From contig LDOQ01000021.1 in NCBI GenBank assembly GCA_001887945.1, positions 1 through 62,747 on the forward strand: a stretch of DNA of 62,747 nucleotides, in the 5' to 3' direction. Made by a program: the position numbers and the translations under genes. The notes under the pieces were generated by a model. It was not told where the DNA came from. It made no database searches and worked only from the letters and a program-made list of their open reading frames with translations. How positions within the stretch are numbered: position 1 is the first letter of the stretch; every line of letters starts with the position of its first letter. Of this stretch, positions 1-58,575 are shown one piece after another. The stretch comes from Spraguea lophii. Its lineage: Eukaryota > Microsporidia > Spragueidae.

Positions 1-127
1 GCATATCTGTAGCGAAACCAGTTAGTACAAGTTTAATTTCGCTCGAGGAACCGAAGGTCACAGACCATGGTAGGCCGCAACCGGCCAGGAAGCTTTGATA
101 AATAAAAGTTTCATTCGTAAAAAAAAA
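1..127 (+). mobile_element. tRNA-derived SINE, 3' part (cut by window edge)
   Basis: This is the last part of the interspersed repeat defined at 4759-5249, in plus orientation. It is nearly identical to 16906-17030 and to the reverse complement of 4759-4885. It ends with the family tail: GATAAATAAAAGTTTC followed by an A-run. The 5' part lies outside the window, so neither the head nor the target-site duplication can be checked. Its GC content is clearly above that of the flanking DNA, as in the other young copies. Confidence 0.88.
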
Positions 128-185
128 ATCATATTTAAGTTATGTAATGATATTATGTATCTACTATTCTGAAATTTATAATACG

Positions 186-295
186 TTGAGATTAATGTGT
201 AAATACAATGAAACCAATTAGTACAAAATATTCATGTTTTGAAGGATTAATAGTCTCAGATCATTATGATGACCCTTCGTTAAATAATTCCAATT
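186..295 (+). mobile_element. decayed SINE fragment
   Basis: This is a diverged copy of the same 3' region as 1-127. It keeps recognisable blocks: GAGATTAATG, GAAACCAATTAGTACAA and TAGTCTCAGATCAT. Most differences are toward A or T. It has no head and no clear tail. It could be an old independent insertion next to the young copy. The rest of 296-607 is AT-rich with no gene visible. Confidence 0.6.
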
Positions 296-1975: not shown

Positions 1976-2399
1976 AAATTCTATTGTTATAGTATTTATA
2001 TTCGTATTATAATATTATCTATATTATTTATAACATTTATATTATCTATAATTTTATATTGTATGATAATATTATCCTATAATATAAAATCATTTTTACG
2101 TTAAATATATTAATACAATCTAATTGTTATAACCATTACCAGCAGAATAAGAAGGATATTATCTTTTTAAAAATAAATTATATGAAATTATAATCTTTCA
2201 AATAATACAATAAATATATATCTATTGTAAATACATCGTTTAATTTTAAATAACAGATTAAAATATATCTATCGTAAACACGTATAAAATATTTGATAAT
2301 AAACTAATATATTATTTCCAATGTAACATTTAATCTCTGATGTTTATTTTATTTATCAAAATACAAATATTTTTTCTTTATTCTATTTTCCCTTCCCTT
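1976..2399. other. AT-rich spacer, no gene seen
   Basis: About 420 bp of very AT-rich DNA with simple ATAT and TTATA runs. I see no reading frame, RNA gene or repeat copy that I can support. It ends in the pyrimidine-rich TTCCCTTCCCTT directly in front of the EFL1 start. Confidence 0.6.
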
Positions 2400-4745
2400 A
2401 TGCCGGATATTGTAATTTCCATTGTAGCACATATAGATCATGGAAAAACCACAATAATTGATAGTATAATAGCACATGGTGGACGTATATCAAAATCGGT
2501 TGCCGGGTCTATCCGTTATTTAGATAATAGAGAAGATGAACAAATACGTGGTATAACATTAAAACTGAGTTTTATAAAATATAAAAATCTAATATTTATA
2601 GACACACCTGGCCATGTAGATTTTGAATCATTAATTGAATGTAGTAGTATACTTAGTGATATATCTATTGTGGTTGTTGATATTAATGAATTTGTAACAC
2701 CACGTACTATAACAATACTTCAATATATAAAATATAATTCTATTCTTATAATAAATAAAATGGATAAAGCGGAAGAGGATGTACAAAGGGCAGTAGAAAG
2801 AATTAATAGTTTGTTGAAACGAGAAGCATTTAGTTGGAAGAAAAATAATATAATATTATGTTGTGCGACACAACAATATGGAATAAATTATCAACGCTTG
2901 GTTGCATTGGTGGGAGAAAAGAAGGCTACTATAAATAATGGTGCGCAGTTTTTAAAAATATTAAAAAATAAAGTTGATAAGAATGATGTAGAGAAAATAA
3001 GAATCAAATATCAATTAAGAAGTAGAAATTTGTTGAATGAACTTTTACCGTTGGCAGAAACTATATTGGATTCTATAGACAGTGTAAAAAATAATATTCA
3101 AATATTTGGTAAAGATATCCTAAGAAAATATATAATTGAAAATAATTTAAACAGTGAAAATAGTGAAGATGATAGTAAAAGTGATTTAAATAATCTAAAT
3201 ATTAAAAATAATAGTAATATTGAAGATAACAATAATATAATACTCGATATTAAAGATAATTTAAATAATCTAAATATTAAAGATAATAATACAATACATA
3301 ATATTAAAAATATTGAAAATAATAAAATATTACCACAGAATAATCTTTTATTCGGAATATCTACGTATGCTATAAAACATTTTGATAAAATATTATTTGT
3401 TCTGAAAATCCTAGAAGGTAAAATAAAAATAAATAATAAAATCTATAGTATAAACAATAATAGAAAAGAATCTATTATAGAAGAAATATATATTTTAGAT
3501 ATGGATAATCTTATATCTGTAGAAGAAGTAGAAGGTGCTACATTATGTTTTATTAAAGCAGATATTTTAAAAAATAGTATTATCACAGATTCATTATATA
3601 AATACCATAAAAATGATTTTTATGGTATAGATCTTTATAATATTGAATTTAATTTACAATTAACAAGATTACCATTATATAGATGTAAAATATATACAGA
3701 AGATATAGATATAGTAAAAAGAGAATTGAAAATGTTATCGTATACAGAAACTAATCTTAAAGCAAAAGTCAATAAATTTAAAGAAATAGAAATATTGTGT
3801 GAAGGTAGTATGCAGAAAGAGAAAATATTAAATGATTTAAGAGAGAAGTGTGATATAATAGAAAAAGATTTTGTAGAAACTTATATGGAATCTGTAACTA
3901 ATAGAGTGGAGAAGATGTTTGAAGAAAATGGTATTAAAGTGAATATTGTTTTAGATAGTAATAATAATTTAGATAGTAATGTGGTAGAAGGTAATAAGAA
4001 TAATTTAGATAATAATAATGAGATAGAAGGTAAAAATAGTAATCTAGATCGTAACACTAAGATAGAAGATAATAATTCAAATAATAATAATGAAGATAAT
4101 AATCTAAACACTGAAATAGAAGATAATAATTCAAATAATAATGAAGATTATAATATTTATCATTTTGATAATAATAATCTGTTAAAAATCAATAAAAATA
4201 GATTTGAAGATATAATTCTAAATGCAGTACAATATTTCTTAGAGAATGGATCATTGCTGAATGAAAAGATATTTTCTATTTTTATCGAAATATTATTTAT
4301 AGATAATAATATTAAAATATCAGAAAATATATATTATGATGATAATTTATATTATTTTATTAGGAATAGTATTTATTCGTTGTATGATGATGCTAAACCT
4401 ATTATAATACCATATTTTTATGATTGTAAAATATTTATTCTTTCTTTGAATATTTACACTGTATTACAAAAATATTATTATATTTTATTAAATGAAGATT
4501 ATGATGAAGATACTGAATTTTATGTTCTTAATATTTTAATACCTAGATTTTGTTATGATGATATGGTTGAAGAATTAAAAATTAAAAGTAAAGGATGTTT
4601 TTATGTTAAGGTAAGAGAAATTGGATATATGGTGGAAAATGGAAATTATAATAAATATAATCATATTGTAGATAAAGTAAGAAAGGAGAAAGGATTAGTG
4701 AGTGAGGAGAAAGAAGAAAAACAGAAAATATTAAGAAAACAGTAA
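2400..4745 (+). CDS. RIA1: EFL1/Ria1-like ribosome-assembly GTPase
   Basis: EF-2-related translational GTPase of about 781 residues. GTPase motifs: G1 AHIDHGKT, G2 RGIT, G3 DTPGH and G4 NKMD. The switch region SIRYLDNREDEQIRGIT matches EFL1/Ria1 rather than EF-2. Ria1 acts with SBDS to release eIF6/Tif6 from pre-60S subunits in the cytoplasm. I chose the ATG at 2400, not 2340, because it follows the CCC tract and starts right at the conserved MPDIVISIVAHIDHGKT. Two Asn/Asp/Glu-rich low-complexity insertions interrupt the fold, encoded by about 3140-3330 and 3940-4150. The protein is shorter than yeast Ria1 (about 1,100). A SINE is inserted directly behind the TAA. Confidence 0.88.
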   Translation: MPDIVISIVAHIDHGKTTIIDSIIAHGGRISKSVAGSIRYLDNREDEQIRGITLKLSFIKYKNLIFIDTPGHVDFESLIECSSILSDISIVVVDINEFVTPRTITILQYIKYNSILIINKMDKAEEDVQRAVERINSLLKREAFSWKKNNIILCCATQQYGINYQRLVALVGEKKATINNGAQFLKILKNKVDKNDVEKIRIKYQLRSRNLLNELLPLAETILDSIDSVKNNIQIFGKDILRKYIIENNLNSENSEDDSKSDLNNLNIKNNSNIEDNNNIILDIKDNLNNLNIKDNNTIHNIKNIENNKILPQNNLLFGISTYAIKHFDKILFVLKILEGKIKINNKIYSINNNRKESIIEEIYILDMDNLISVEEVEGATLCFIKADILKNSIITDSLYKYHKNDFYGIDLYNIEFNLQLTRLPLYRCKIYTEDIDIVKRELKMLSYTETNLKAKVNKFKEIEILCEGSMQKEKILNDLREKCDIIEKDFVETYMESVTNRVEKMFEENGIKVNIVLDSNNNLDSNVVEGNKNNLDNNNEIEGKNSNLDRNTKIEDNNSNNNNEDNNLNTEIEDNNSNNNEDYNIYHFDNNNLLKINKNRFEDIILNAVQYFLENGSLLNEKIFSIFIEILFIDNNIKISENIYYDDNLYYFIRNSIYSLYDDAKPIIIPYFYDCKIFILSLNIYTVLQKYYYILLNEDYDEDTEFYVLNILIPRFCYDDMVEELKIKSKGCFYVKVREIGYMVENGNYNKYNHIVDKVRKEKGLVSEEKEEKQKILRKQ

Positions 4746-4758
4746 TAAATTTTTATAA

Positions 4759-5249
4759 TTTTTTTATGAATGAAACTTTTATTTATCAAAGCTTCCTGGC
4801 CGGTTGCGGCCTACAATGGTCTGAGACCTTCGGTTCCTCGAGCGAAATTAAACTTGTACTAACTGGTTTCGCTACAGATATGCATTAATCTCATCTTACC
4901 TTATGCTCCAGAGTGTTAGGATTTTGCGTATGGTGCGCGTCGCCGCCCCCACTTCCAGCTCTTAAGGAATTCCCAGCCTCTTTCGTTGCATAGTATTGGC
5001 CGAGTCACTAATCAATACAGGGATTGCAACTACATCAGCTGAACACTACTTTAATCTAGTAGCGGGGCCGTCATACAAGGCACAGCTATGCTGCGCTATC
5101 GAAACCTCACCCACTCAACAACCTTTTTCTTCTCTTCTCCGTTTATTATTATTCTTTTTTTGTTTTGAAAATTTTTCTGGATGAGGGATTCGAACCCGCC
5201 AGGCTTGGGGTTTGGTTACCACCCCACGACCACTGGGCCAGACGGGACT
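4759..5249 (-). mobile_element. full-length tRNA-derived SINE (reference copy)
   Basis: 491 bp, minus orientation, flanked by a perfect 13-bp target-site duplication TAAATTTTTATAA at 4746-4758 and 5250-5262. From its 5' end (5249) it reads: a tRNA-like head with box A and box B; an A-rich linker; a unique body of about 400 bp with GC-rich stretches and small palindromes (GGTCTCAGACC, GGCCGcaaCCGGCC); and a tail GATAAATAAAAGTTTC plus a short A-run. This architecture defines a tRNA-derived SINE mobilised by a LINE reverse transcriptase. It has no coding capacity: the 62-codon frame at 4996-5184 is incidental. It lies 1 base after the EFL1 stop codon, antisense to that gene. Confidence 0.92.
5185..5240 (-). 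promoter_or_regulatory. internal Pol III promoter (box A + box B) of the SINE
   Basis: On the minus strand, TGGCCCAGTGG (5240-5230) fits the box A consensus TRGCNNAGYNG. GGGTTCGAATCCC (5197-5185) is a perfect box B core. The spacing is that of a tRNA gene. The region folds only partly as a tRNA: there is a GGGGT/ACCCC anticodon-like stem and a T-arm with one mismatch, but the 5' AGTCCCG is not complemented at the 3' side. It is therefore a tRNA-derived head rather than a functional tRNA gene. I did not assign an anticodon. Confidence 0.87.
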
Positions 5250-5312
5250 TAAATTTTTATAAAATGATTAAAAGATTTTAAAATGGTTTTAAACGATTAA
5301 GATTTATAAGAT

Positions 5313-5760
5313 AATTTTTTAATGGAATTTTTATTTATAAAATATTATTGGTTGGATATAATTTATTATAAGCTTATTATATATTCTAATTTCTAAAGAA
5401 TATTTAAATTTATATTAACTAGTTTCACTAGAGATATATATGTTTATCTTATATTACATTATTTTACATTATGGTATAGAGCATAAGGATTTTGTGTGTA
5501 ATATACGCCATCTTCTTTTCTCAACTTCTTAATTATTTAAAATATTTTTCTAAGATTATATTAACTAGATCATTAATAAGTATTGTAATTACAATAGTTA
5601 AACATTACTTTAATTAAACAATATGGTTGTTATACAAGACATAACAAGCTATATCATCAAAATTCTATTTTTCATTTATTCACATATATATTCTTATTTT
5701 AGTGATATATTCACAAATACTTACGAATTTAAGAAACAAATAAATTAAATCTATGGTAAT
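5313..5760 (-). mobile_element. old SINE copy, heavily AT-decayed
   Basis: It starts with the tail complement (TTTTTTAATGGAATTTTT) and follows the body of 4759-5249 in the same order: TTAACTAGTTTCACTAGAGATATAT, GCATAAGGATTTTGTGTG, AGTATTGTAATTACAATAG and AACATTACTTTAATTAAACA. The head is no longer clear, so the right end is approximate. It lies only about 60 bp from the younger copy. Confidence 0.7.
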
Positions 5761-8029: not shown

Positions 8030-9313
8030 ATGTATCAATATTTTTACGATATTCTTACGAAATATTATTTTGAAATATCTCGAACAATATTTGAAATATT
8101 AATTTTATATTTCTATATTATATTACGCACTAAGAAGAAGCATAATGATTTGGTTCTTTCAGATTCTATGATGGATAAGCTTATTGATGAATTTCAACCA
8201 GAACCTATTGTTCCAAATATATATTATAAATCGGTAAATTTTTCATTGAATAATGAAAAGACGAAAAATTTTGTGGATTATGATTTATATGATATAAAGA
8301 ATAAATTTAAAAATGAAATGAAGGAAACCATTTTAAAATATGGAATTGGTACGTGTGGGCCGCCGGGATTTTATGGGACGTTGGATTTACATTTGGATTT
8401 GGAGAGTAAAATAAGCGAAAAATTGGGTATGGAGAGTTCTATAATATATTCTAATTATTTTACATGTGTAAATAGTGTGATTTCTTGTTTTTGTCGATCA
8501 AATGATGTTATTTTTTATCATAAAGATTGTAATGAGGCTATATTAAGAGGTATATTGGTTACTAAATCAAATTCTATTCAATTTACTAATTTTGATGATC
8601 TTAAAAATTCATTACAAGAAAATTATAATGAAGATAATAGAAATTTTGTTATTGCAGAAGGTTTATTTAGAAATAGTGGTAAAATATTTAATATTCAAGA
8701 TCTTTTAGAATTACAAGAGGATTTTCCATTTAGAATAATATTAGATGAAAGTCTATCATTTCCTCTACTCGGTACCAGAGGTATTTCATCATTCTTTCAT
8801 ACGGATATAAGCAAAATAGATCTAATAATTGGCACATTTTCCCATATTTTTTGCTCGAATGGTAGTTTCGTAAGCGGCAGTAAAACTGCTGTAGATTATC
8901 AACGACTATTAGCCCCTGGATATTGCTTTTCAGCATCACTTCCAGGATTTTTATCCCGATTCGTATTAGAAGCTTTAAAAATAGATTATTCAAAATATAA
9001 TTTTGATGAACTTATAAAATATTTCCACCATAATTTCAATGTAAAAGATTATCAGATTCTATCGGATATTAAATCTCCATTGATATTTATTTCCCGAAAA
9101 GTCAGTGTTGTTAGTACGAATGACCTATCACAAAAAGAAGAAATAAAAAAATTGGAATATACAAAATTTAAATTAATGAATAAAAATATTGTTATAGGAT
9201 TACATCAAAATCCAACACCAAGATTAAGAATATGTTTAAAATATAATCACACTAAAAAAGATATTGCTTTGTTGTTAAGCAAATTACAATATTATTTAAA
9301 TAAAACAGAATAA
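8030..9313 (+). CDS. LCB1: serine palmitoyltransferase subunit LCB1
   Basis: 427 residues. PLP-dependent alpha-oxoamine synthase fold, the non-catalytic SPT subunit that pairs with LCB2 in the ER membrane to make 3-ketosphinganine from serine and palmitoyl-CoA. A hydrophobic anchor near residues 17-33 (ISRTIFEILILYFYIIL) is followed by GIGTCGPPGFYGTLDLHLDLE, typical of LCB1. LDESLSFPLLGTRG is the LCB1 equivalent of the cofactor loop. GTFSHIFCSNGSFVSGS occupies the position where LCB2 carries the PLP lysine; its absence here identifies LCB1. The start at 8030 lacks a CCC motif but precedes the membrane anchor correctly. LCB2 is not in the window. Confidence 0.93.
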   Translation: MYQYFYDILTKYYFEISRTIFEILILYFYIILRTKKKHNDLVLSDSMMDKLIDEFQPEPIVPNIYYKSVNFSLNNEKTKNFVDYDLYDIKNKFKNEMKETILKYGIGTCGPPGFYGTLDLHLDLESKISEKLGMESSIIYSNYFTCVNSVISCFCRSNDVIFYHKDCNEAILRGILVTKSNSIQFTNFDDLKNSLQENYNEDNRNFVIAEGLFRNSGKIFNIQDLLELQEDFPFRIILDESLSFPLLGTRGISSFFHTDISKIDLIIGTFSHIFCSNGSFVSGSKTAVDYQRLLAPGYCFSASLPGFLSRFVLEALKIDYSKYNFDELIKYFHHNFNVKDYQILSDIKSPLIFISRKVSVVSTNDLSQKEEIKKLEYTKFKLMNKNIVIGLHQNPTPRLRICLKYNHTKKDIALLLSKLQYYLNKTE

Positions 9314-9344: not shown

Positions 9345-9755
9345 AATCATATTTTTTAATAAAGTTTTTATTCCTATAAAATTTATGGGTTACCATGGTT
9401 TGTAACTTTTAATTCTTGAAATACATTTTGATTTGTATTTATTAGGTGTTATAATAGTTTTATTAATATCATGTTAGATTATATTTTAATTTTAGAAAAT
9501 TATGTATATGGTGTACATCATTACCATTCAATGATTTTAGGAGATTCTTAATCCCTTTGTTAATATAATATTAACATAATCACTAGTCGAGATAATTTTT
9601 TTTCATAAGCAAACAAACATTGTTCTAATATAATAATGAAAACAAATACAAACACATAATATCAAAATAGTTATTCTGAAGGATGCGAACAGATGAAATT
9701 CAGATATTTTTAAATCTGATTGCCATTACAACACGGATACTTGTGTAGTATAAAA
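9345..9755 (-). mobile_element. old full-length SINE copy
   Basis: It starts with the tail complement (TTTTTTAATAAAGTTTTTATT), then GGGTTACCATGGTTTGTAAC, AATTATGTATATGGTGTAC and GGAGATTCTTAATCCC in family order. It ends with GGATGCGAACAGATG, a mutated box B region, and a remnant of box A. It is directly followed by the next copy, so two elements lie head-to-tail between LCB1 and the HIT gene. Confidence 0.68.
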
Positions 9756-9762
9756 AATATAA

Positions 9763-10230
9763 TTTTTTAAATGGAACTTTTATTTATAAAAATTCTCTGG
9801 CCGGTTGCAGTTTACCGTGGTCTATGTCCTAGTTCTTAAAGCACCCCTAAACTTATACTAACTGGTTTTGCTACAGATATGTATTAATCTTATACCATAT
9901 TCTAGGTGTTAAGGGTTTGCGTATAGTGCATGTTACCACCCCTCGTAGCTTTTTAGAGATTCCCAACTTCTCTCTTAGCATAATATTGACCAAATCACAA
10001 ATCAATATGGGAAATGCAATTACATTAGCTGAACATTATTCTTTAATCTGGTAGTGGGCCTTCATCACAATTAATGCTGCGCTATCGAACACTCATCCAC
10101 TCAACAACCTTTCTCTTCTCTTCTGCCTTCTATTATTATTATTTTTTGAAAATTATTCGTTGTGTGGGATTCGAACTCGCCAGTTTGGGATTTGGTTACC
10201 ACCTCACGACCGTTGGGCCAGGTGGGCTCA
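9763..10230 (-). mobile_element. SINE copy with intact Pol III boxes, upstream of HIT gene
   Basis: Intermediate-age full-length copy, minus orientation. The tail complement TTTTTTAAATGGAACTTTTATTTATA is followed by CTGGCCGGTTGC, ACTGGTTTTGCTACAGATATG, GCTGCGCTATCGAA and CACTCAACAACC. Box B (GGGATTCGAACTC on plus, 10166-10178) and box A (CCGTTGGGCCA, 10210-10220) are still recognisable. The head ends only about 24 bp before the HIT start codon, so a Pol III unit would fire away from that gene. An imperfect flanking duplication (AATATAATT / GATTTATAATT) is possible but not certain. Confidence 0.85.
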
Positions 10231-16680: not shown

Positions 16681-16799
16681 AGCTGTTTAATGTTTTCAGC
16701 TGTTTTGAATAACTTATTCTTCAAGGAAAAAGGACATTGGTTGTAAATTTTTTTCCCTTTTTATACTGATGATTTTATCTGGTATTTTTAATACATTAT

Positions 16800-17031
16800 G
16801 CAACGAAAGAGGTTGGGAATTCCTTAAGAGCTGGAAGTGGGGGCGGCGACGCGCACCAGACGCAAAATCCTAACACTCTGGAGCATAAGGTAAGATGAGA
16901 TTAATGCATATCTGTAGCGAAACCAGTTAGTACAAGTTTAATTTCGCTCGAGGAACCGAAGGTCTCAGACCATGGTAGGCCGCAACCGGCCAGGAAGCTT
17001 TGATAAATAAAAGTTTCATTCATAAAAAAAA
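16800..17031 (+). mobile_element. young 5'-truncated SINE with target-site duplication
   Basis: A 232-bp copy, nearly identical to 4759-5249. It begins inside the body at GCAACGAAAGAGG and runs to the A-rich tail. It is flanked by a perfect 14-bp duplication TTTTAATACATTAT at 16786-16799 and 17032-17045. 5' truncation inside a target-site duplication is the signature of target-primed reverse transcription that stopped early. It lacks the Pol III head and so should be immobile. Confidence 0.93.
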
Positions 17032-19627: not shown

Positions 19628-20110
19628 ATTTTTTTAAAATGAAACATTTATTTATAAGAGTTATTTGGACTATTGTGGTCTATGAACTTTAGTTCCTAAA
19701 GCATATTTAAACCTATACTAACTGGTTGCGTTACAGATTTATATTAATCTCATCTTACGTTATGCTCCAGAACGTTATGATTTCGCGTATATTCACATTG
19801 GGAATTGAAATGTAGAAAAATTAATTAAAAGTCTAGAAAAAAGTAATTTATCTTATTTCCTTATGTTAAAAAAATTTGTGTATGTCGTCACACCCTCTCA
19901 GCTTCTTAGAGATTTATAACCTCCTTTTTAGCATAATACTAATTAAGTCACAAAGTAATACAGGGATTGCAACCACATCGGTTGAATACTGCTTTAATCT
20001 AATAATAAAAACGACATACAAGGTACATACAAATCCATGTCATTAAATCCTACCCGCTCACTCAATTATCTTTTCTTTTTTGGTTTCTTCGAAATTTTAT
20101 AAAATATCCT
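19628..20110 (-). mobile_element. SINE copy upstream of the THADA-like gene
   Basis: Intermediate-age copy. The tail complement TTTTTTAAAATGAAACATTTATTTATA is followed by TGTGGTCTATGAAC, ACTGGTTGCGTTACAGAT, CATCTTACGTTATGCTCCAG, CAGGGATTGCAACCACATCGGTTGAA and CATACAAGG in family order. An extra segment of about 85 bp (about 19795-19875), flanked by similar GTGTATGTC-like blocks, interrupts the body. The tRNA head is lost or unreadable. The element ends about 50 bp before the next start codon. Confidence 0.8.
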
Positions 20111-23532: not shown

Positions 23533-26500
23533 TCAACCTACAATAAGATTTCCAGATATAGCCATGCCATTATGTGTAAACTTCTCTTCTCTTATATATC
23601 CCACAGAATTACAATTGCTGCATTTGTATAAGCATGGTAGTTTCTTTTTCTCCATTATATGCACGTTATCAGTAAATTCCATTGGACTGCCTATATCGCC
23701 AAGTTGGCTATTCATCGATTCACTAGATTTTGGACTTCCTAGACTTCCTGAGTTTCTAGAATTATTTCGATCTTCCGACAAGACGCGGGATTTTTCTTCT
23801 AGGTTATTTGATAAATCGTCACTAAAGTATTCTTTTCCAGTTTCTATATCATCTGATGATAAATTACTTATTGATTGTTGTGGTGAGGGAACATCTGTAT
23901 TAGGAATTTTTTCAGTCTTTTCGGTTTTTTCTTCGTTATCAAATTCTGATTGTATTTTAGTATTCTGATCATCAACATTTTCTTGGGGTAGAGGACATTC
24001 ATTCTGTAATGATGTATCTTCGTTGACTATTATCTGTTCAGGAACTGCATTATCTTCTGGGGAAGTAACTGATTCTTCTATATTTTCGAGATCTTTATCC
24101 TTCTTTGATGGTCTATTAAACATTTTATTGAATGCTTTTTTTATTGTAGACATACTTTTATTAAGTCCGCCCATATTTCTTTGTTTTGAACCATCATTTG
24201 CAGATAAATCTAACGATGTAGATGGTGTAGTACTTTCATGGCCATTAATATTTTCGTCGCCTGGAAGAGATGATTGATTATCTAATGATTCTTGAGGATT
24301 AGAATCAATATTGTCAGAATTTTCATTTTCTTTATCTTCTGAGTTTGATCTTCTTCTATTAATATCATCGTCACTTCTTGTGGTTTCCAAAATTCTTCTT
24401 TCATCCTTATCCTGATCATCGACATTTTCTTGAGATAAAGGACATTCATTTTGTAAAGAGGTATCTTCGTTGACTACTATCTGTTCAGGAACTGCATTGT
24501 TTTCAGAAGAATTAACTGATTGTTCTATATTTTCCTCATGATCTTTATCCTTCTTTGATGGATTATTAAACGCTTTATTAATTGCTTCGTCCATAGTAGA
24601 GATATGTTTATCAAGTTCGTCCAGTATTTTTTGATTCAAAATTTCATCTACAGGTAAATCTAACGATGTAGATGGTGTAATACTTTCACGTTCATTTTTC
24701 AAGTCCGAATTATGTTTTTTATTTTCATTAATATTATCGTCACTTGAAAGAGGTGATCGGGTATCTAATGATTCTTGAGAATTAGAATTAACATTGTCAG
24801 AATTTCCATCTTGTCTATCTTCCAAGTTTAACCTTCTTTTATTAATCTCATCATCATTTCTTGCGGTTTCCAAAATTCTTCTTTCATCCTTATCCTGATC
24901 ATCGACATTTTCTTGAGATAAAGGACATTCATTTTGTAAAGAGGTATCTTCGTTGACTACTATCTGTTCAGGAACTGCATTGTTTTCAGAAGAATTAACT
25001 GATTGTTCTATATTTTCCTCATGATCTTTATCCTTCTTTGATGGATTATTAAACGCTTTATTAATTGCTTCGTCCATAGTAGAGATATGTTTATCAAGTT
25101 CGTCCAGTATTTTTTGATTCAAAATTTCATCTACAGGTAAATCTAACGATGTAGATGGTGTAATACTTTCACGTTCATTTTTCAAGTCCGAATTATGTTT
25201 TTTATTTTCATTAATATTATCGTCACTTGAAAGAGGTGATCGGGTATCTAATGATTCTTGAGAATTAGAATTAACATTGTCAGAATTTCCATCTTGTCTA
25301 TCTTCCAAGTTTAACCTTCTTTTATTAATCTCATCATCATTTCTTGCGGTTTCCAAAATTTTTCTTTCTTCATTATCTTGAGGTAAAGGACATTCATTCT
25401 GTAATGATGTAGCTTCGTTGACTATTATCTGTTCAGGAACTGCATTATCTTCTGGTGAATTAATTGATTGTTCTATATTTTCCTCAAGACCGCCGTCTTC
25501 ATTTGATGAATTATTAAACGTTTCGTCCATTGTAGGCATATTTTTATTAGGTCCATCCAGTATTTTTTGATTCAGGATTTCATCTACAGGTAAATCTAAC
25601 GATGTAGATGGTGTAGTACTTTCACGTTCATTAATATTTTCATCGCTTGAAAGAGGCAATTGATTATCTAATAATTCTTGAGGGGCAGAATTAACATTAT
25701 CAAAGCTTTCATTTTGTTTATTTTCTAAACTAGCCGTGGGTTGCATTTCTTCGGTAGAATCTCTGGTTACTGCTTTCATATCTTTATCAATGTTCATACG
25801 TTCATACACTGGTATACTTGAAGATGGAATCATATGTGGAATGTCTTCTGTTGTAGCTATTTGACTTTCGTCTTCTATTTCTTGATCTACATCATTCAAA
25901 GGAATATATTTCTTTCCTATATTTTCTTCTTTTTGTGAAATGTTAGACTCCTCATCTTCCCAAGAAGAATTCTTGTCAGAAATTTCCGAAACAATTTTAT
26001 CGGATTCGTCGGGAACGACCTCCACTCTCGTCAAAGATGTTTTTTCTTGTGGATTTTGTAATACATTCGAATTATTTGGATTCATATTATCACCATTATT
26101 TTCATCTTCTAGGGAACCCTTGTCTTTATTCTTTAAATCATTGGTTCTATCATCGGTTGTTTTTTGAGGGAAAGAACCCTGTTCTTTTGAATCTAAATCA
26201 GATTGTGTAACTTCTGAATCATCTAATCTTTGTCTAATAGGGTTAATATTATGTTGTATTTCAGAGTTTATTTCTGGTATAATTAAATTATCAGAATCAA
26301 TCATTTCATTTTCCATGTTTTCATCGTTTGTATTATTATTATTATTTTCTTCTTTATTGAATATTGAACTTTCATCTAAACTATCATTATCTATTTTACT
26401 GTAAAATGTAGTATCCTTAGAACTACTATGCTCATAATCTTTTTCATTCTTTGATAACAAAGATTTCATGAAAGAAGGTGATGTATTATCCCTTTGCGAT

Positions 26501-27267
26501 TCGTTGTCGCTTGATACACTATTTGTTTCGCTTTCTTTGATTATTCTTGAAGATGTTTCATCATCCGATTGTTCTATTATTAGATCAAGAGGAATTGCAA
26601 ATTGGTGATTCATACTTTCATCTGTGGTTTTTATTTCAGAATCATCGGAACATACTGAGTTTTCTAATTCATTTGTTTCTGTCTGATTAATATCTTTAAC
26701 ATCTTGAGAATCTAAATTATCTTTACTGAGATTGGACTGGGGTTTAATTCCAGTTTCTGGTTTGATTTTTTTATCCTCTAATATTCGACTTGTATTTTTC
26801 TCTCCTTCTATTTCGTTGACATTCAAATTATTTTCTATCTCTGGATTCAAAACATTGGTGTGAGGAATGCGTGCGTCTGTTTGATCCACTTCCTCCCCTG
26901 GTGTCTGGCCGTCAATATTTTGAGGAGTTATAGTCTTTTCTGTATTTTCTTCATCCCCAGTATTTTCTACATCAGTTCTATCATCAGCAGAAAAAAATCC
27001 TCTTAATCTTAATATGATAACAGAGAAAAACTTTTTTATCTTATTTTCACTTTTATCTGGAAGTTCCACATCATCATAAACATAATCTTCCATAGATTTA
27101 AAATCTTCATCACTGAACTGATTAAATTCTTTTTTAACATCCATGTAGAAATCTTGAAGAGCATCTGGATTGACTAAGTTATCATATGCTCGAACATGAT
27201 TTCGTAGCATATTTTCAGTAGCTAATACATTAAACAAATATAAAAAATATATCATTGTTTTTGACAT
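23533..27267 (-). CDS. large acidic secreted protein with 161-residue tandem repeats
   Basis: 1,244 residues. The N-terminal MIYFLYLFNVLATEN looks like a signal peptide; an ATG 4 codons downstream is an alternative start. The mature chain is rich in Ser, Glu, Asp, Asn and Thr and is probably disordered. The C-terminal half is built from units of 161 residues (483 bp). Two central units appear identical and two flanking ones are diverged. Each unit carries a TPSTSLDLPVDE-like segment, a basic DEINKRRLN segment and a VPEQIVVNEDTSLQNECPL segment. The C-terminus has a Cys cluster (LPCLYKCSNCNS). No enzymatic domain is seen. Candidate spore-wall, polar-tube-associated or host-exported protein; this role is inference. 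Confidence 0.85.
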   Translation of the reverse strand: MSKTMIYFLYLFNVLATENMLRNHVRAYDNLVNPDALQDFYMDVKKEFNQFSDEDFKSMEDYVYDDVELPDKSENKIKKFFSVIILRLRGFFSADDRTDVENTGDEENTEKTITPQNIDGQTPGEEVDQTDARIPHTNVLNPEIENNLNVNEIEGEKNTSRILEDKKIKPETGIKPQSNLSKDNLDSQDVKDINQTETNELENSVCSDDSEIKTTDESMNHQFAIPLDLIIEQSDDETSSRIIKESETNSVSSDNESQRDNTSPSFMKSLLSKNEKDYEHSSSKDTTFYSKIDNDSLDESSIFNKEENNNNNTNDENMENEMIDSDNLIIPEINSEIQHNINPIRQRLDDSEVTQSDLDSKEQGSFPQKTTDDRTNDLKNKDKGSLEDENNGDNMNPNNSNVLQNPQEKTSLTRVEVVPDESDKIVSEISDKNSSWEDEESNISQKEENIGKKYIPLNDVDQEIEDESQIATTEDIPHMIPSSSIPVYERMNIDKDMKAVTRDSTEEMQPTASLENKQNESFDNVNSAPQELLDNQLPLSSDENINERESTTPSTSLDLPVDEILNQKILDGPNKNMPTMDETFNNSSNEDGGLEENIEQSINSPEDNAVPEQIIVNEATSLQNECPLPQDNEERKILETARNDDEINKRRLNLEDRQDGNSDNVNSNSQESLDTRSPLSSDDNINENKKHNSDLKNERESITPSTSLDLPVDEILNQKILDELDKHISTMDEAINKAFNNPSKKDKDHEENIEQSVNSSENNAVPEQIVVNEDTSLQNECPLSQENVDDQDKDERRILETARNDDEINKRRLNLEDRQDGNSDNVNSNSQESLDTRSPLSSDDNINENKKHNSDLKNERESITPSTSLDLPVDEILNQKILDELDKHISTMDEAINKAFNNPSKKDKDHEENIEQSVNSSENNAVPEQIVVNEDTSLQNECPLSQENVDDQDKDERRILETTRSDDDINRRRSNSEDKENENSDNIDSNPQESLDNQSSLPGDENINGHESTTPSTSLDLSANDGSKQRNMGGLNKSMSTIKKAFNKMFNRPSKKDKDLENIEESVTSPEDNAVPEQIIVNEDTSLQNECPLPQENVDDQNTKIQSEFDNEEKTEKTEKIPNTDVPSPQQSISNLSSDDIETGKEYFSDDLSNNLEEKSRVLSEDRNNSRNSGSLGSPKSSESMNSQLGDIGSPMEFTDNVHIMEKKKLPCLYKCSNCNSVGYIREEKFTHNGMAISGNLIVG
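23900..25750 (-). repeat. 483-bp tandem repeat array within the secreted protein gene
   Basis: Homologous positions fall at 24383, 24866 and 25349, exactly 483 bp apart. The two units 24383-24865 and 24866-25348 look identical base by base. The unit at about 23905-24382 and the partial one at 25349-25750 are diverged and carry small deletions. The period is a multiple of three, so the frame is kept. Confidence 0.9.
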
Positions 27268-27744: not shown

Positions 27745-28600
27745 TATGTTTAATTATTTATTAAAAATATAATTTAAAATAACTAATTAAACTATTAAAT
27801 AAACGCGGCTTATATTTTGGAAATCTAAAAATAGCAAATGCTATTCTATAAAATATTATTTTAATTATGTATATTGAGATAATACTTAGAAAGTCAATTA
27901 TTTTAAATTTTTATTATTCAATAATAACATTTAGAATTAATTTTGAAGTTTTGTTTTAAATTTTGAAAAAAATTAACTTCTTTATTTTTTATATTTAACA
28001 TTATAAGTAAATTATAAAATATTTAAATGATTGTTATTGTATGATCATGATATTTTTCCCATTGGCAATATTATTATTTCAAAAATCATTTCAAACCGAA
28101 ACTTTAAAAAGCTCGCAATCATCCTCATTGTTAAAGACAGAAAAAAAGTCTATAAGAAAAAACTCTATTGGGGAGCATAAAGTTTTTTATCAAAACGATA
28201 ACCAAGAAAATGGGAAATATTCAAAGCCATTGTCAAGAATTCAAAAGGTAATAAAAAATATGGACAAAATCAACCCTGTAGAAGTCCCAAAAAATTATAA
28301 ACTTCCTGTGTCTGAACTTCGCCGCCCAGGCCCAAAGTTTGTAAAAATTCTATCTAGTTTATCATGTGCTTGCATCAAAAACGATGAAAATGATCCTAAT
28401 AATGAGGAAACTTCATATTGTTTTAAATCAGAAACTGAAGAAGATGATAATGGACTTTATGAAAGACACGAATGGACAGAATCATTCGATAGATCAGCAC
28501 TTCATATAAAAGAGGATGAAACTGAAAAATTAATGAAATGATAAAAAACAGTGTTATTAGTTATTAAATAAAGATCTTGATTATGTCATTGGTACAATGA
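27745..28600 (+). repeat. segmental duplication, copy 1
   Basis: This block and 29480-30330 are alignable from about 240 bp upstream of the secreted-protein gene through its coding region to TCATTGGTACAA past the stop. The duplication therefore includes the putative promoter. The copies differ by many substitutions and small gaps. Confidence 0.85.
28041..28541 (+). CDS. secreted protein family member 1
   Basis: 166 residues. The N-terminal hydrophobic segment MIMIFFPLAILLFQKSFQTE is a likely signal peptide. The mature part is polar, with conserved blocks KVFYQNDNQE, KFVKILSSLSC and FKSETEEDDN and four Cys. It is paralogous to 29747-30244. This copy has lost the upstream start codon used by copy 2 (ATA instead of ATG). 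Instead it has a 5-codon upstream frame at 28027-28044 whose TGA overlaps the real ATG. No CCC motif is present. Function unknown; probably exported. Confidence 0.8.
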   Translation: MIMIFFPLAILLFQKSFQTETLKSSQSSSLLKTEKKSIRKNSIGEHKVFYQNDNQENGKYSKPLSRIQKVIKNMDKINPVEVPKNYKLPVSELRRPGPKFVKILSSLSCACIKNDENDPNNEETSYCFKSETEEDDNGLYERHEWTESFDRSALHIKEDETEKLMK

Positions 28601-28609
28601 GAGGCTAAA

Positions 28610-29469
28610 GGATACCCTACGTATGCCCCTGTCATTAATTTTTTTTACCCTTGCAAATAAAACATTAAGCAATGAATAAAAGTTTAATTAATTTATTAAA
28701 AACATTATTTTCTTCATTTTTCATAAATATAAAGAGGTTTAAAAAGAATTGTAATTTGTTGAAATTAAAATATCTTTTGCTGACAAACTTTTTTACGCCA
28801 TATCAAGTACATTCCATTGAGTTACTGTGTACAATAATTTCAGAATCTTTGAAATTATTGTTGTAGCTTACAATGTAATGTTTCATCTTTACATCTTTTA
28901 TATTATATCCTTCTAACAATCTGAATATAATCAGAATTCATGCCTAATATGAGTTTTTGTAATATTTGAGGTTTTTTAACTGGATTTCCAATTATTTTTA
29001 AGAATAATAGCCTGTTGTTCTCTCTATATCATCCACTTCCCGACGACCCTACATCCCTGTTATATTTCCTCTCATCAAATTTTAACTCATATATTTCTAC
29101 AATTATATTTTTTCCTTCTGTTTTATAGGGGTTTTTAAATAATAATTGTCTACTTTTCTTCTAATTTAATTATTATCTTCTGCAGCGTTGATTTCAACAA
29201 GATTATGATATCATTTCTTATATAATTTGACGATAACTGAAATAAATTTTGTTTTTCTGTATTTTTTTCTATAATATTTTTTCCTATAATATTTCTTTAT
29301 TTTTTATTTACTTCATATTACCAAACAAAAAAACATTTTTGAATATTTATAAACTTGTTTAAAAACGAATTGAATACGTTTTTCACATCTTCCAACTTAA
29401 TTTTTTTGTTCAGCAGCAAGGGTAAAAAAAATTTAATGACTTCCAAAAGTGGCATATGTAGGGTACCCC
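28610..29469 (-). mobile_element. decayed Merlin-type DNA transposon with terminal inverted repeats
   Basis: Left end 28610-28654 and right end 29416-29469 are inverted repeats of each other. They share ACCCTAC(G/A)TATGCC, GTCATTAA and TTTTTTACCCTTGC, with a 7-8 nt gap. Between them the minus strand holds fragments of a Merlin/ISXO2-like transposase: a VEI-E-KFDERKYNR block near 29090, an IERTTGYYS block near 29000, and near 28820 HSNSMECT-YGVKKFVSKRYFN, matching the HTNxIExxW block. Frameshifts and stops show it is dead. No target-site duplication is visible. It sits between the two copies of the secreted-gene duplication. Confidence 0.78.
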
Positions 29470-29479
29470 AACTCCATTT

Positions 29480-30330
29480 ATTATTTTAATAATAAATAAA
29501 TAATTTAAATAACCAATTAAACTATTAAATAAATGCGACTTGTATTTTGAAGAAATCTAAAAATAACAAATGCTATTCTATAAAGCATCCTTTTAATTAT
29601 GTATATTGGGATAATACTTATACAGTTAATTATTTCGGGATTTTATTATTTAATAATAATAATATTACTAATTAATTATAAAGCTTTGTTTAAATTTGGA
29701 AGAAATTAACTTCTTTATTTTTTATATTTAACCTTATAAGTAAATCATGAAGTATTTAAGGGATTGTTATTATATGATCATGATATTTTTTCTATTGGCA
29801 ATGTTATTATTTCAAAAAACATTTCAAACCGAAATTTTAGAAAATCCGCAATCATCCTCATCGTTAAAGACAGAAGACAAACCTATAAGAAAAAATTCTA
29901 TTGAGGAACAGAAAGTTTTTTATCAAAACGATAACCAAGAAGGAGGGGAATGTTCAAATCCATTAAAAAATATGGACAAAGTCGAACCTGTAGAAGTTCA
30001 AGAAGATGATAAACTTCTCTTGATTGAAATTCCTCACCCAGGCTCAAAGTTTGTAAAAATTCTATCTAGTTTATCATGTAATTGCATTGATTTCGATGAA
30101 CGTGATCCTAGTGATGAGGAAGTTTTGTATTATTTTAAATCAGAAACTGAAGAAGATGATAATAGACTTTATGAAGCACAAGAATGTATAGAATCATCCG
30201 ATACATCAGCACTTGTTATAAAAGATGATGAAACGAAGAATTAATGAACCGATAAAAACTGTGTTATTAGTTATTAAACGAAAAATTTGATTATGCCATT
30301 GGTACAACGAGAAAGAAGAGCAACAACAAA
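29480..30330 (+). repeat. segmental duplication, copy 2
   Basis: Partner of 27745-28600. Upstream blocks ACTATTAAATAAA, CAAATGCTATTCTATAAA, TTAATTATGTATATTG and TTAACTTCTTTATTTTTTAT are shared in the same order. Confidence 0.85.
29747..30244 (+). CDS. secreted protein family member 2
   Basis: 165 residues and paralogous to 28041-28541. It starts nine codons further upstream with MKYLRDCYYMIMIFFLLAMLLFQKTFQTE, a signal peptide. The acidic mature chain keeps KVFYQNDNQE, KFVKILSSLSC and YFKSETEEDDN. Cys positions are only partly conserved. No known domain. The pair suggests a lineage-specific exported family under diversification. Confidence 0.82.
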   Translation: MKYLRDCYYMIMIFFLLAMLLFQKTFQTEILENPQSSSSLKTEDKPIRKNSIEEQKVFYQNDNQEGGECSNPLKNMDKVEPVEVQEDDKLLLIEIPHPGSKFVKILSSLSCNCIDFDERDPSDEEVLYYFKSETEEDDNRLYEAQECIESSDTSALVIKDDETKN

Positions 30331-36959: not shown

Positions 36960-37390
36960 AATCTTGAGGTCAGTGATGTAATAATCAGCAGAATTAAAAT
37001 ATTTTTTGAGAATTCTGATTTGAGTCTTTTTAAATACAAAATCGGTAGTATGATAATCCGTAATATTACGTACGTGTATACAGCCTTGTTATTAAATTAG
37101 AACAACGTCTGGTCAACTATATGAAAATCCACTGTATTGACCAGATCCAATATTATATTCTAAAGAGAAAGAAAACAAATAGAATATAAAAGGTGACAAT
37201 GATATACATCATACACCCAATTTAATACTCTTTAGTATAAGACAAGATGAGTTTAATTATATCACCGAAATACCCAGAGAATACAAGTCAAAATAGACCC
37301 TAAAGAACTTGATGTTACAGAGACCACGGTAGATCCAACATGACCAAAAAATTCATATAAATTTAGTTTCATTAAAGAAATAAGAGTAAT
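36960..37390 (+). mobile_element. old full-length SINE copy
   Basis: Plus orientation. Body blocks occur in order: CAGCCTTGTTATTAAATTAGAACAACGTC (for GGCCCCGCTACTAGATTAAAGTAGTGTTC), TCCACTGTATTGA, CCAATATTATATTC, AAGACAAGATGAGTTTAAT, GTTACAGAGACCACGGTAG and TTTAGTTTCATTAA. A weak head (TTTGAGAATTCTGAT for box B) may remain at about 37005. It is about 500 bp upstream of the Sac1 gene. The rest of 36852-37908 is AT-rich with nothing recognised. Confidence 0.68.
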
Positions 37391-40084: not shown

Positions 40085-40571
40085 TAAATAATATTGATAT
40101 GGAAGTTGTAATAACTTATTTATAGGATTGTTTTTAAATATTATTATTATTTATATCTTATTATAATCTAAGATCTTTGGTTCTTAGATTAGATTTAAAT
40201 TTGTATAAGTTTATTTTGTTATAAATATACATTAATCTTGTATTATGTTCTGGTTGTTGGAATTTTGTGTATGATGGATATAGTTATTATCCTTGGCTTT
40301 TTAGAAAATACCCAATCTTGTTCTTGGTATAATATCAATCAAACATAAATAAATACAAAGATTAATGTATATCTGATAAACACTATTTTTATCTAACACC
40401 TGTGTTGTATCCAAAGTATAACTAATGTTACGTTCGTGAACCCTCACCTGCTCAATAACGTTTTTATTCTTCTCTTTTTATCTTTACTTTAAAAAATATC
40501 CAAGTATACAATTCGAACCTCCTACCCCATAATTTGATATTACTCCACGACTACCCAGATAAATAGGATAA
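40085..40571 (-). mobile_element. old SINE copy upstream of beta-tubulin
   Basis: Full-length but strongly decayed. In family order: ACTTATTTATA, AAGATCTTTGGTTCTTAGA, ATACATTAATCTTGTATTATGTTC, TTGGAATTTTGTGTATGATG, CCCTCACCTGCTCAATAACG, and a remnant head with AATTCGAACCTCC (box B region) and CCACGACTACCCAGA (box A region). The head ends about 70 bp before the beta-tubulin ATG. Confidence 0.75.
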
Positions 40572-56934: not shown

Positions 56935-57450
56935 ATTCTTGCTGAAAAAGCCATGTAAAAGATGTAAGGTGTGTATAATTTTAGAAATTTCTGACAATAT
57001 ATCTACGTTTGGGTGGGGATGTAATAAAAGTATCATATCAATCAATGAACATACTTTTCTCGAGTATTAAGTTATTCTTTGAAAAAATATTTCATGTTTT
57101 ATACAAAAAAATCAACAAGTAAAAGAAGATATAAAGATTGGTAAAAGCATAGGTAAGATGAGTTTAATGCATATTTGTAGTGAAAGTAGTTAGTACAAGC
57201 TTAGATTCGCTTGAGGAACCGAAGGTCACAGACCATGGTAGGCCGCAGTCGGCCAGGGAACTTTGATAAATAAAAGTTTCATTAATAAAAAAAAATAAAG
57301 ATTGGTAAAGAATGTTTAATTTCTATTTTTAAAAAATTAGATGAAAATACTAAAAAATAAAAAGGAAAGTACACAAGAGGAAAAGGCATTACAAATATAG
57401 ATAAATTGGTTTTCACAAAATTCAGTATCATATATGAGGAACATATAAAT
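56935..57450 (+). pseudogene. decayed transposase remnant, probably Merlin N-terminus, split by a SINE
   Basis: Reading 56940-57070 in shifting frames gives CKRCKVCIILEISDN, then GWGCNKSIISINEHTFLEY. This looks like the N-terminal Zn-ribbon of ISXO2/Merlin transposases (CxxC...WxCxK...SIxxxTF). Stops follow. The frame runs into the SINE at 57146 and seems to resume behind it (GKECLISIFKKLDENTKK, then KGITNIDKLVFTKFSIIYEEH). The DDE part is not recognisable, so the family is tentative. Confidence 0.45.
57146..57294 (+). mobile_element. 5'-truncated SINE with perfect 15-bp target-site duplication
   Basis: 149 bp, beginning in the body at AGCATAGGTAAGATGAG and ending in TAAATAAAAGTTTC plus an A-run. 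It is flanked by ATAAAGATTGGTAAA at 57131-57145 and 57295-57309. It differs from the young copies at a few sites (for example CGCAGTCGGCC versus CGCAACCGGCC), so it is slightly older or belongs to a subfamily. It has no head and is not mobile by itself. Confidence 0.93.
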
Positions 57451-58140: not shown

Positions 58141-58369
58141 TAATTATAAAATTTAGAAATTTGTTTAAATTTATATTCAGTTACTATTTAAACTGATTCG
58201 TTTAAGAAAATTAACAAATATAATAGTTTTAATTGTTTCATAATACTTATTATTCTGAATTGTAAGATTACACAATCAATTAAAATAATAAATAATTATA
58301 ATTTCTATATAATTTATAGATTAAAAGAAATTTTGTGATGACTCTGTCAATATTATATCAAGAAAGGAG

Positions 58370-58575
58370 TTGAATCACGCTAACACAAAAAAATAATTAC
58401 ATCATACGCAAAACCCCAATATTTCGATAAAATATAAGATCAAATTAATGCATATATTTAGCAAAAACAATTATGATAATTTAATCATGTTTTAAAGAAG
58501 CGGTTGTTTATACCGTGACGGGCTCGATCTGCCAAGTGCTTTGATGATAATTAAGGTGTTATTTGAAAAAAACTT
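58370..58575 (+). mobile_element. old SINE copy, 3' half
   Basis: Plus orientation. Family-order blocks: CATACGCAAAACCCC, ATAAGATCAAATTAATGCATAT, ACAATTATGATAATTTAATC, GAAGCGGTTG, CCGTGACGGGCTCGATCTGCCA and GTGCTTTGATGATAATTAAGG. No head and no clear target-site duplication. Confidence 0.65.

Follow-up and report, generated by a model that had tools for sequence, protein, structure and literature searches.

A tRNA-headed SINE and its candidate LINE partner in a microsporidian genome

Can a member of the Microsporidia, a model for extreme genome reduction, harbor a tRNA-derived SINE family that parasitizes a LINE? The question is raised by a 491-bp element at positions 4759 to 5249 of the window, the 62,747-nucleotide stretch of DNA analyzed here, which is contig C25 of a 5.27-Mb genome in 73 contigs. 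A preliminary description of the sequence had proposed such a family and had assigned the DNA to a microsporidian. The host assignment held: the protein encoded at 8030 to 9313, which has an aminotransferase class I/II domain and is a serine palmitoyltransferase by its named matches, finds its best named matches, behind five nameless ones, in Trachipleistophora hominis (49%) and Vavraia culicis (47%), and the beta-tubulin of the window has named microsporidian matches of up to 85% (among the matches listed, from the best 8,000 candidates by shared words). For either protein, the 120 matches listed include none that is both named and closely related. We consider it very probable that the element belongs to a tRNA-headed microsporidian SINE, probably still or recently active, that is mobilized by an endonuclease-bearing LINE of the same genome. 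Pol III would start at the head via boxes A and B and read through the SINE, and the LINE reverse transcriptase (RT) would recognize a folded 3′ region common to the SINE and the LINE 3′ UTR. The LINE endonuclease would nick A/T-rich DNA, copying would start at the A tail, and this target-primed reverse transcription would leave target-site duplications of 11 to 16 bp.

The element is real; it lies on the minus strand with its head at 5249 (Table 1). Read 5′ to 3′, it consists of the head, an A-rich linker with TTTT, a body, a LINE-like stretch of ~100 bp, AATAAA, and an A run. The AATAAA-bearing A-rich tail and the 13-bp target-site duplication were both found as described, the duplication being exact; its left copy starts immediately 3′ of the stop codon (4743 to 4745) of a gene with a GTP_EFTU domain (2340 to 4745). 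In all, the element is short and noncoding and is dispersed in copies with shared ends, Pol III boxes, duplications, and an A tail, which identifies it as a SINE.

Table 1. Parts of the young element and other SINE copies in the window.
Feature	Position	Strand	Remarks
Full-length SINE copy	4759–5249	−	5′ end at 5249, 3′ end at 4759; 491 bp
tRNA-like head, carrying both Pol III boxes	5186–5249	−	
Box A TGGCCCAGTGG	5240–5230	−	Fits canonical motif
Box B GGTTCGAATCC	5196–5186	−	Fits canonical motif
TTTT	5168–5171	−	Longest T run 3′ of box B; possible weak Pol III stop
A-rich linker and body	4890–5167	−	No Rfam family at gathering score
Region homologous to LINE 3′ UTR	4787–4889	−	Core 4794–4842
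Terminal tail	4759–4786	−	AATAAA (4783–4778) and poly(A), A run 4765–4759
Target-site duplication TAAATTTTTATAA, left copy	4746–4758	n/a	Exact repeat of 5250–5262
Target-site duplication TAAATTTTTATAA, right copy	5250–5262	n/a	13 bp
Young SINE copy, 3′ part	1–125	+	Cut by contig end; 97.6% identical
Weak old SINE remnant	182–264	+	E 1.4e-4; enlarged profile only
Old SINE remnant adjoining young copy	5393–5647	−	Profile
Weak old SINE remnant	9387–9590	−	E 2.9e-7; enlarged profile only
Older near-full-length SINE copy	9770–10226	−	~76% identical
Young SINE copy, 5′ truncated	16793–17020	+	98%
Old broken SINE copy	19638–20083	−	Two matches; profile
Old SINE remnant	37192–37372	+	Profile
Old SINE copy	40166–40554	−	Profile
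SINE copy, 5′ truncated	57148–57283	+	89%
Old SINE remnant	58336–58547	+	Profile

The putative promoter was compared with the canonical box A and box B motifs. Both boxes are present in tRNA-like order, ~33 nt apart, and none of 20,000 dinucleotide shuffles of the element held box A followed by box B. The exact pair occurs only once in the window, in the element itself. Across 29 aligned copies, the 22 box letters are identical in all 29, except at position 1 of box A (93%).

The head may derive from a tRNA. When the head was compared with the 57 tRNA genes of the genome (48 distinct sequences), its best score was 16.8, versus at most 13.8 for 200 shuffled heads. The best match, to Arg-tcg, covers 49 of 65 aligned bases, with Leu and Ser nearly equal, and no single parent tRNA stands out. 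An Rfam scan of 4700 to 5300 returned three weak matches (E 0.094 to 2.6), none of them to tRNA, rRNA, or 7SL; the box B hairpin gave one of the three, a match of 13 bases to tmRNA (9.7 bits; E 0.094). ARAGORN found no tRNA in the window. The head might come from another Pol III gene or from convergence, in a SINE that is one by structure and would be named solely for its Pol III-type promoter. The missing Rfam and ARAGORN matches and the lack of a clear parent favor this account, which we nevertheless regard as improbable given two perfect boxes at a tRNA-like distance and a score above all shuffled heads; moreover, decay of the head is common in SINEs. We conclude that the head of the SINE is tRNA-like by virtue of its two boxes and its modest similarity to tRNA, which is not decisive. 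An origin from rRNA, 5S, or 7SL was rejected, there being no Rfam match at gathering score anywhere in the window, the SINE body included. The predicted stability of the whole SINE RNA is unremarkable (z −1.75; 6 of 100 shuffles equally stable).

Would Pol III reach the end of such an element? Beyond box B, T runs reach a maximum length of 4 in 27 of the 29 copies, of 3 in one, and of 5 in one. Downstream of the tRNA genes of this genome, the first run of at least four T's is T4 in 5 of 57 cases and T5 to T9 in the other 52. Because T4 is the first run at just 5 of the 57 genes, reading through the TTTT of the SINE is plausible, and this run, ~80 nt into the SINE, may stop Pol III in part of the transcripts.

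A search of the whole assembly with the element, as had been suggested, revealed near-identical copies genome-wide. From 451 first-look candidates, 40 were scored; they gave at least 40 near-full-length matches that are 97 to 100% identical, and 6 matches of lesser length or similarity bring the total to 46. A 20-nt head pattern with up to 3 mismatches was found at 180 places in the genome and a 24-nt tail-core pattern at 151, while both reversed-pattern controls gave 0; these totals are tool counts, with positions listed for 100 places each. The copy number of the SINE in this genome is well over a hundred. Among the places listed, contigs C15, C25, C54, C56, C58, and C60 start at one SINE position, within one base. 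Six contig starts at one point inside the SINE are typical of a repeat break, and the assembly therefore probably undercounts the family. Viral contigs and prokaryote genomes held no exact match to the SINE sequences; microsporidia are hardly expected there.

Common to the copies are a 5′ start within a few bases, a 3′ A tail, and perfect Pol III boxes. A majority sequence was built from 29 copies, that is, from the 30 best-scoring loci of the 40 scored copies minus L024; in the comparison of shared ends, L012 and L024 showed one and the same copy. The 29 copies diverge from the majority by 0.21 to 1.88%; as the best-scoring copies were chosen, this divergence and the conservation of the boxes describe the closest copies and not the whole family. 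The G+C content of the majority sequence is 46.6%, and that along the window is 16 to 31%.

In the window itself, a profile of the SINE gave 13 hits, or ~12 insertions, which comes close to the ~14 related copies first reported. They cover 3,101 of 62,747 bases, or 4.9%, so that the earlier figure of nearly 8% was too high at this sensitivity. The profile was made from the 29 copies and enlarged once with the window's own hits of >100 bp, which match by construction; the first, unenlarged profile had 11 window hits, and the reversed window gave zero. Window copies that are ~75% identical point to a long earlier history of the SINE. Besides the insertion behind the GTP_EFTU-domain gene, the head of the copy at 9770 to 10226 ends ~28 bp before the likely start codon (10255) of a gene that we take to be of HIT type, and the copy at 40166 to 40554 ends ~86 bp before the likely start codon (40641) of the beta-tubulin. 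Lying directly at gene ends, after a stop or before likely starts, window copies may alter promoters and 3′ ends in this gene-dense genome.

The flanks of the copies bear the marks of insertion. Among the 30 best-scoring loci of the 40, 26 have exact target-site duplications of 11 to 16 bp, and L006 and L024 have a duplication with a single mismatch, for a total of 28 of 30 loci read directly; at L016, only 7 bp are exactly duplicated. As a control, flanks were paired between mismatched loci: 6 of 870 pairs reached at least 10 bp, the longest being 12 bp, in a set that includes mis-cut flanks of L024, whose true flanks were read separately. At L022 (contig C45, ~92.4 to 93.7 kb), two inverted SINE copies lie 250 bp apart with their flanking duplications exchanged crosswise, as expected from an inversion between both copies or from an assembly mis-join. 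The base preceding the duplication is T at 18 of 26 sites, and bases 4, 5, and 6 of the duplication are A at 15, 19, and 13 of 26 sites, respectively. In an A/T-rich genome, this pattern would suit a nicking endonuclease that prefers T/A steps but does not prove one.

A preference for insertion near tRNA genes was considered and is not claimed, the excess being about twice expectation on small numbers. Of 100 listed copies, 4 lie within 500 bp of a tRNA gene, versus 1.7 expected. A recount of the 139 distinct listed places from the tail core gave 4 versus 1.6 within 500 bp and 7 versus 3.1 within 1,000 bp; a single tRNA gene accounts for two of these seven.

Which enzyme could have copied the SINE? 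A reverse-transcriptase search of the genome gave nine matches. Four are Ty3/gypsy-type elements (L061, L062, L063, and L066, typed partly by eye), some with long open frames and some broken by stops; two (L065 and L068) represent a telomerase-type RT with the telomerase RNA-binding domain; and three (L064, L067, and L069) are LINE-like pieces, classified by eye, L064 and L069 being linked by sequence searches. In L065, on contig C2, both the RNA-binding and the RT domain of the telomerase type lie in an asparagine-rich open frame that is at least 851 aa long.

With Ty3/gypsy-type and telomerase-type RTs present in the genome, one of these rather than a LINE might mobilize the SINE. We find this scarcely credible: duplications of varying length (here 11 to 16 bp), an A tail, and loss of 5′ sequence typify LINE-type copying, no SINE-like stretch was found in the LTR loci (3- to 8-kb pieces) and telomerase loci examined, and, as set out below, the SINE 3′ region matches a LINE of which at least one copy has this same form. 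That the element is itself an LTR retrotransposon or a fragment of one was rejected on the same duplications and on the lack of a SINE match in those LTR pieces. The preliminary description had named as contrary outcomes an absence of copies elsewhere, a head unrelated to any tRNA, and identity with a known LTR, LINE, or rRNA fragment; none came true, with a reservation on the tRNA point.

Mobilization by a LINE, the reading we favor, directs attention to the LINE pieces. The best one lies at the start of contig C72 and has a 479-aa open frame, with an RT that runs off the contig. Its Exo_endo_phos_2 and RVT_1 profile matches (E about 0.002) are under the Pfam cutoffs. A protein search with the 479-aa frame yielded 20 relatives, the top one showing 31% identity across 95% of the query; endonuclease domains are present in the closest relatives. 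The 5′ endonuclease part of the C72 piece is in a frame other than the 479-aa frame, and this copy may therefore be broken. The first 3 kb of the piece have a G+C content of 40 to 47%. Per 300- to 500-bp step, the LINE pieces L070:1–3000 (C72) and L081 (C21) show ~34 to 51% G+C, versus 16 to 31% in the window.

The 3′ parts of LINEs were found at the beginning of contig C21, where one family ends at position 1155 of L081 and a second at ~2004. Outside C21, the match to the second family runs through to the query end (2004, an A run) at 11 places. Their 5′ limits differ: three lie at 1154, where the query changes family, and eight at different points between 1278 and 1926. Two more places stop matching near 1927, and one at 1838. 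On contig C8 (L113), a 5′-truncated LINE copy extends from CTCC to a long A run and has TTAGAATAA on both sides.

No complete LINE is present in the assembly, the 5′ piece on C72 and the 3′ part on C21 are joined by no contig, and several LINE pieces carry stops or frame changes. The SINE could accordingly be of the proposed kind and now inactive, its amplification having ended with the loss of the LINE. We think this unlikely, though it deserves weight: one LINE piece does retain the 479-aa open frame, and contigs start inside LINE and SINE copies at equal offsets, so that the missing LINE parts may be an assembly effect.

The link between a LINE and the SINE that is probably copied by it lies in the 3′ region. 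SINE positions 361 to 463 align with the LINE 3′ UTR at L081 1781 to 1882, with a score of 80 versus at most 35 in 300 shuffles. Within this region, a core is identical at 41 of 49 positions in the SINE and the C21 LINE, and at 44 of 49 in the L002 SINE and the C8 LINE; SINE copies at other loci match the same LINE place with up to 85.7% identity. The LINE parasitism foreseen for this family thereby gained a concrete counterpart, and the SINE has the 3′ sequence common to a LINE of its genome that characterizes LINE-paired (stringent-type) SINEs. Downstream of the core, the LINE continues for ~130 nt and the SINE for 35 nt. The resemblance between their final ~25 nt was equaled by 34 to 49 of 3,930 control windows ending in AAAA and by 11 to 22 of 3,989 random ones (~0.3 to 1.2%), so it is suggestive at most and is not claimed.

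Sharing ~100 nt of 3′ UTR with the LINE, as well as ending in AATAAA and an A tail, would also suit a deletion derivative of the LINE made by Pol II, as opposed to a Pol III SINE. This is highly improbable, since the element begins with a tRNA-like head that has both boxes, and its body resembles none of the LINE pieces above chance, the C72 piece included (the middle part of the LINE, where the body might have its origin, is absent from the assembly). The body also has no match in the other RT loci, save one SINE copy inside L064. Taken together, these comparisons indicate a real, multicopy, and probably recent SINE that probably has its LINE partner identified.

Folding predictions gave the same three-way shape with two hairpins for the LINE and SINE cores, the outer stem being built from other bases in the SINE than in the LINE. 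Core fold energies are unremarkable (z −0.86, −1.90, and −1.50). The loci examined contain 13 distinct core sequences; all 8 standard pairs of hairpin A are intact in 7 of them and all 5 of hairpin B in 9, retention that says little by itself because most pairs are invariant. By eye, a 22-nt stretch of the other LINE family corresponds to hairpin A, with identical outer bases and equal spacing; inside it, two pairs are altered on both sides and one pair is lost. Folding a longer stretch of this family did not return the shape, and stability was like that of shuffles (z 0.12), so a module common to both LINE families is treated as a lead.

Short matches of the other LINE family on contigs C20, C47, and C42 start at one LINE position, and that on C16 starts two bases later. 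A second SINE family built on the 3′ end of this LINE was considered and, on the flank at C20, set aside: neither box A nor box B occurs in the 243 bases upstream of that fragment, which we read as a truncated LINE copy. The flanks of such clustered-start matches were read for C20 and C8. As a separate observation, the short matches of the two families (L081:955–1155, C20, C47, C42, and C16; L113 on C8, and a match on C6) start near one 3′ UTR position. The clustered starts coincide with the foot of the predicted structure or lie close to it, a pattern that an RT prone to stopping there would give. A tentative reading, attractive but one we would not yet back, is that a single 3′ RNA module, kept by paired changes between the two LINE families, is common to both of these and the SINE, in a living system whose reverse transcription would be stringent despite the poly(A) ends; the module would comprise a CUCC/GGAG-type closure in the LINEs, the 22-nt hairpin A in all, and hairpin B. 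An RT stopping at the foot of the module could explain how a tRNA-headed transcript gained its tail, via template switching.

How does this pair compare with known ones? The eel LINE UnaL2 has a SINE partner named UnaSINE1. SART1 is a target-specific LINE, unlike the SINE here, whose insertions lie in varied A/T-rich sites. Pairs of the stringent type described in passages of PMC3747384 are the eel UnaL2 pair and plant and green-algal pairs of the L1 clade. There, as here, the SINE 3′ region comes from a LINE 3′ UTR, in their case with a stem-loop thought to be recognized by the RT; here, however, the core lies ~130 nt from the LINE end, poly(A) terminates both partners, and the pair resides in a microsporidian. 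A similar case in the same source is SART1, of the R1 clade, whose 3′ UTR is essential although it ends in poly(A). The AfuSINE2 families of Aspergillus fumigatus, as presented in part of PMC5063351, are likewise tRNA-related fungal SINEs of 140 to 493 bp with duplications, one of them similar to a LINE-like element. They are low in copy number, whereas here there are >100 copies and a junction-shaped 3′ region common to a LINE.

The claim of novelty was upheld only in part. At the level of titles and abstracts, subscription papers being mostly outside this scope, the literature on microsporidian and Nosema SINEs and on LINE or non-LTR elements held no described microsporidian SINE family. The words SINE and SINEs are absent from the main text of the survey PMC4202319 and of PMC3486916, as is the word SINE from the main text of PMC3749934; non-LTR elements are mentioned in these texts for Anncaliia algerae, T. 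hominis, and Spraguea lophii. On the other hand, a repeat table for Nosema bombycis has a SINE row of 28,669 bp, or 0.18% of the genome (table in PMC3614468). It concerns the same phylum and bears the same class label, but its description there, unlike the present one, gives no structure, promoter, duplication, or LINE partner. The SINE class is known, and a member with a LINE partner is unusual for a microsporidian host and hardly described there.

If true, the presence of many SINE copies and their LINE partner in a genome of 5.3 Mb would show that nonautonomous retroposons can thrive despite reduction. Copies of the SINE would serve as markers for insertion polymorphism, and the pair would offer a 3′ RNA recognition module distant from those of animals and plants.

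Elsewhere in the window, positions 23533 to 27267 and 28041 to 30244 include a repeat-rich open frame of 1,244 aa with internal repeats ~483 bp apart; behind it come two small open frames that form a duplicated pair.
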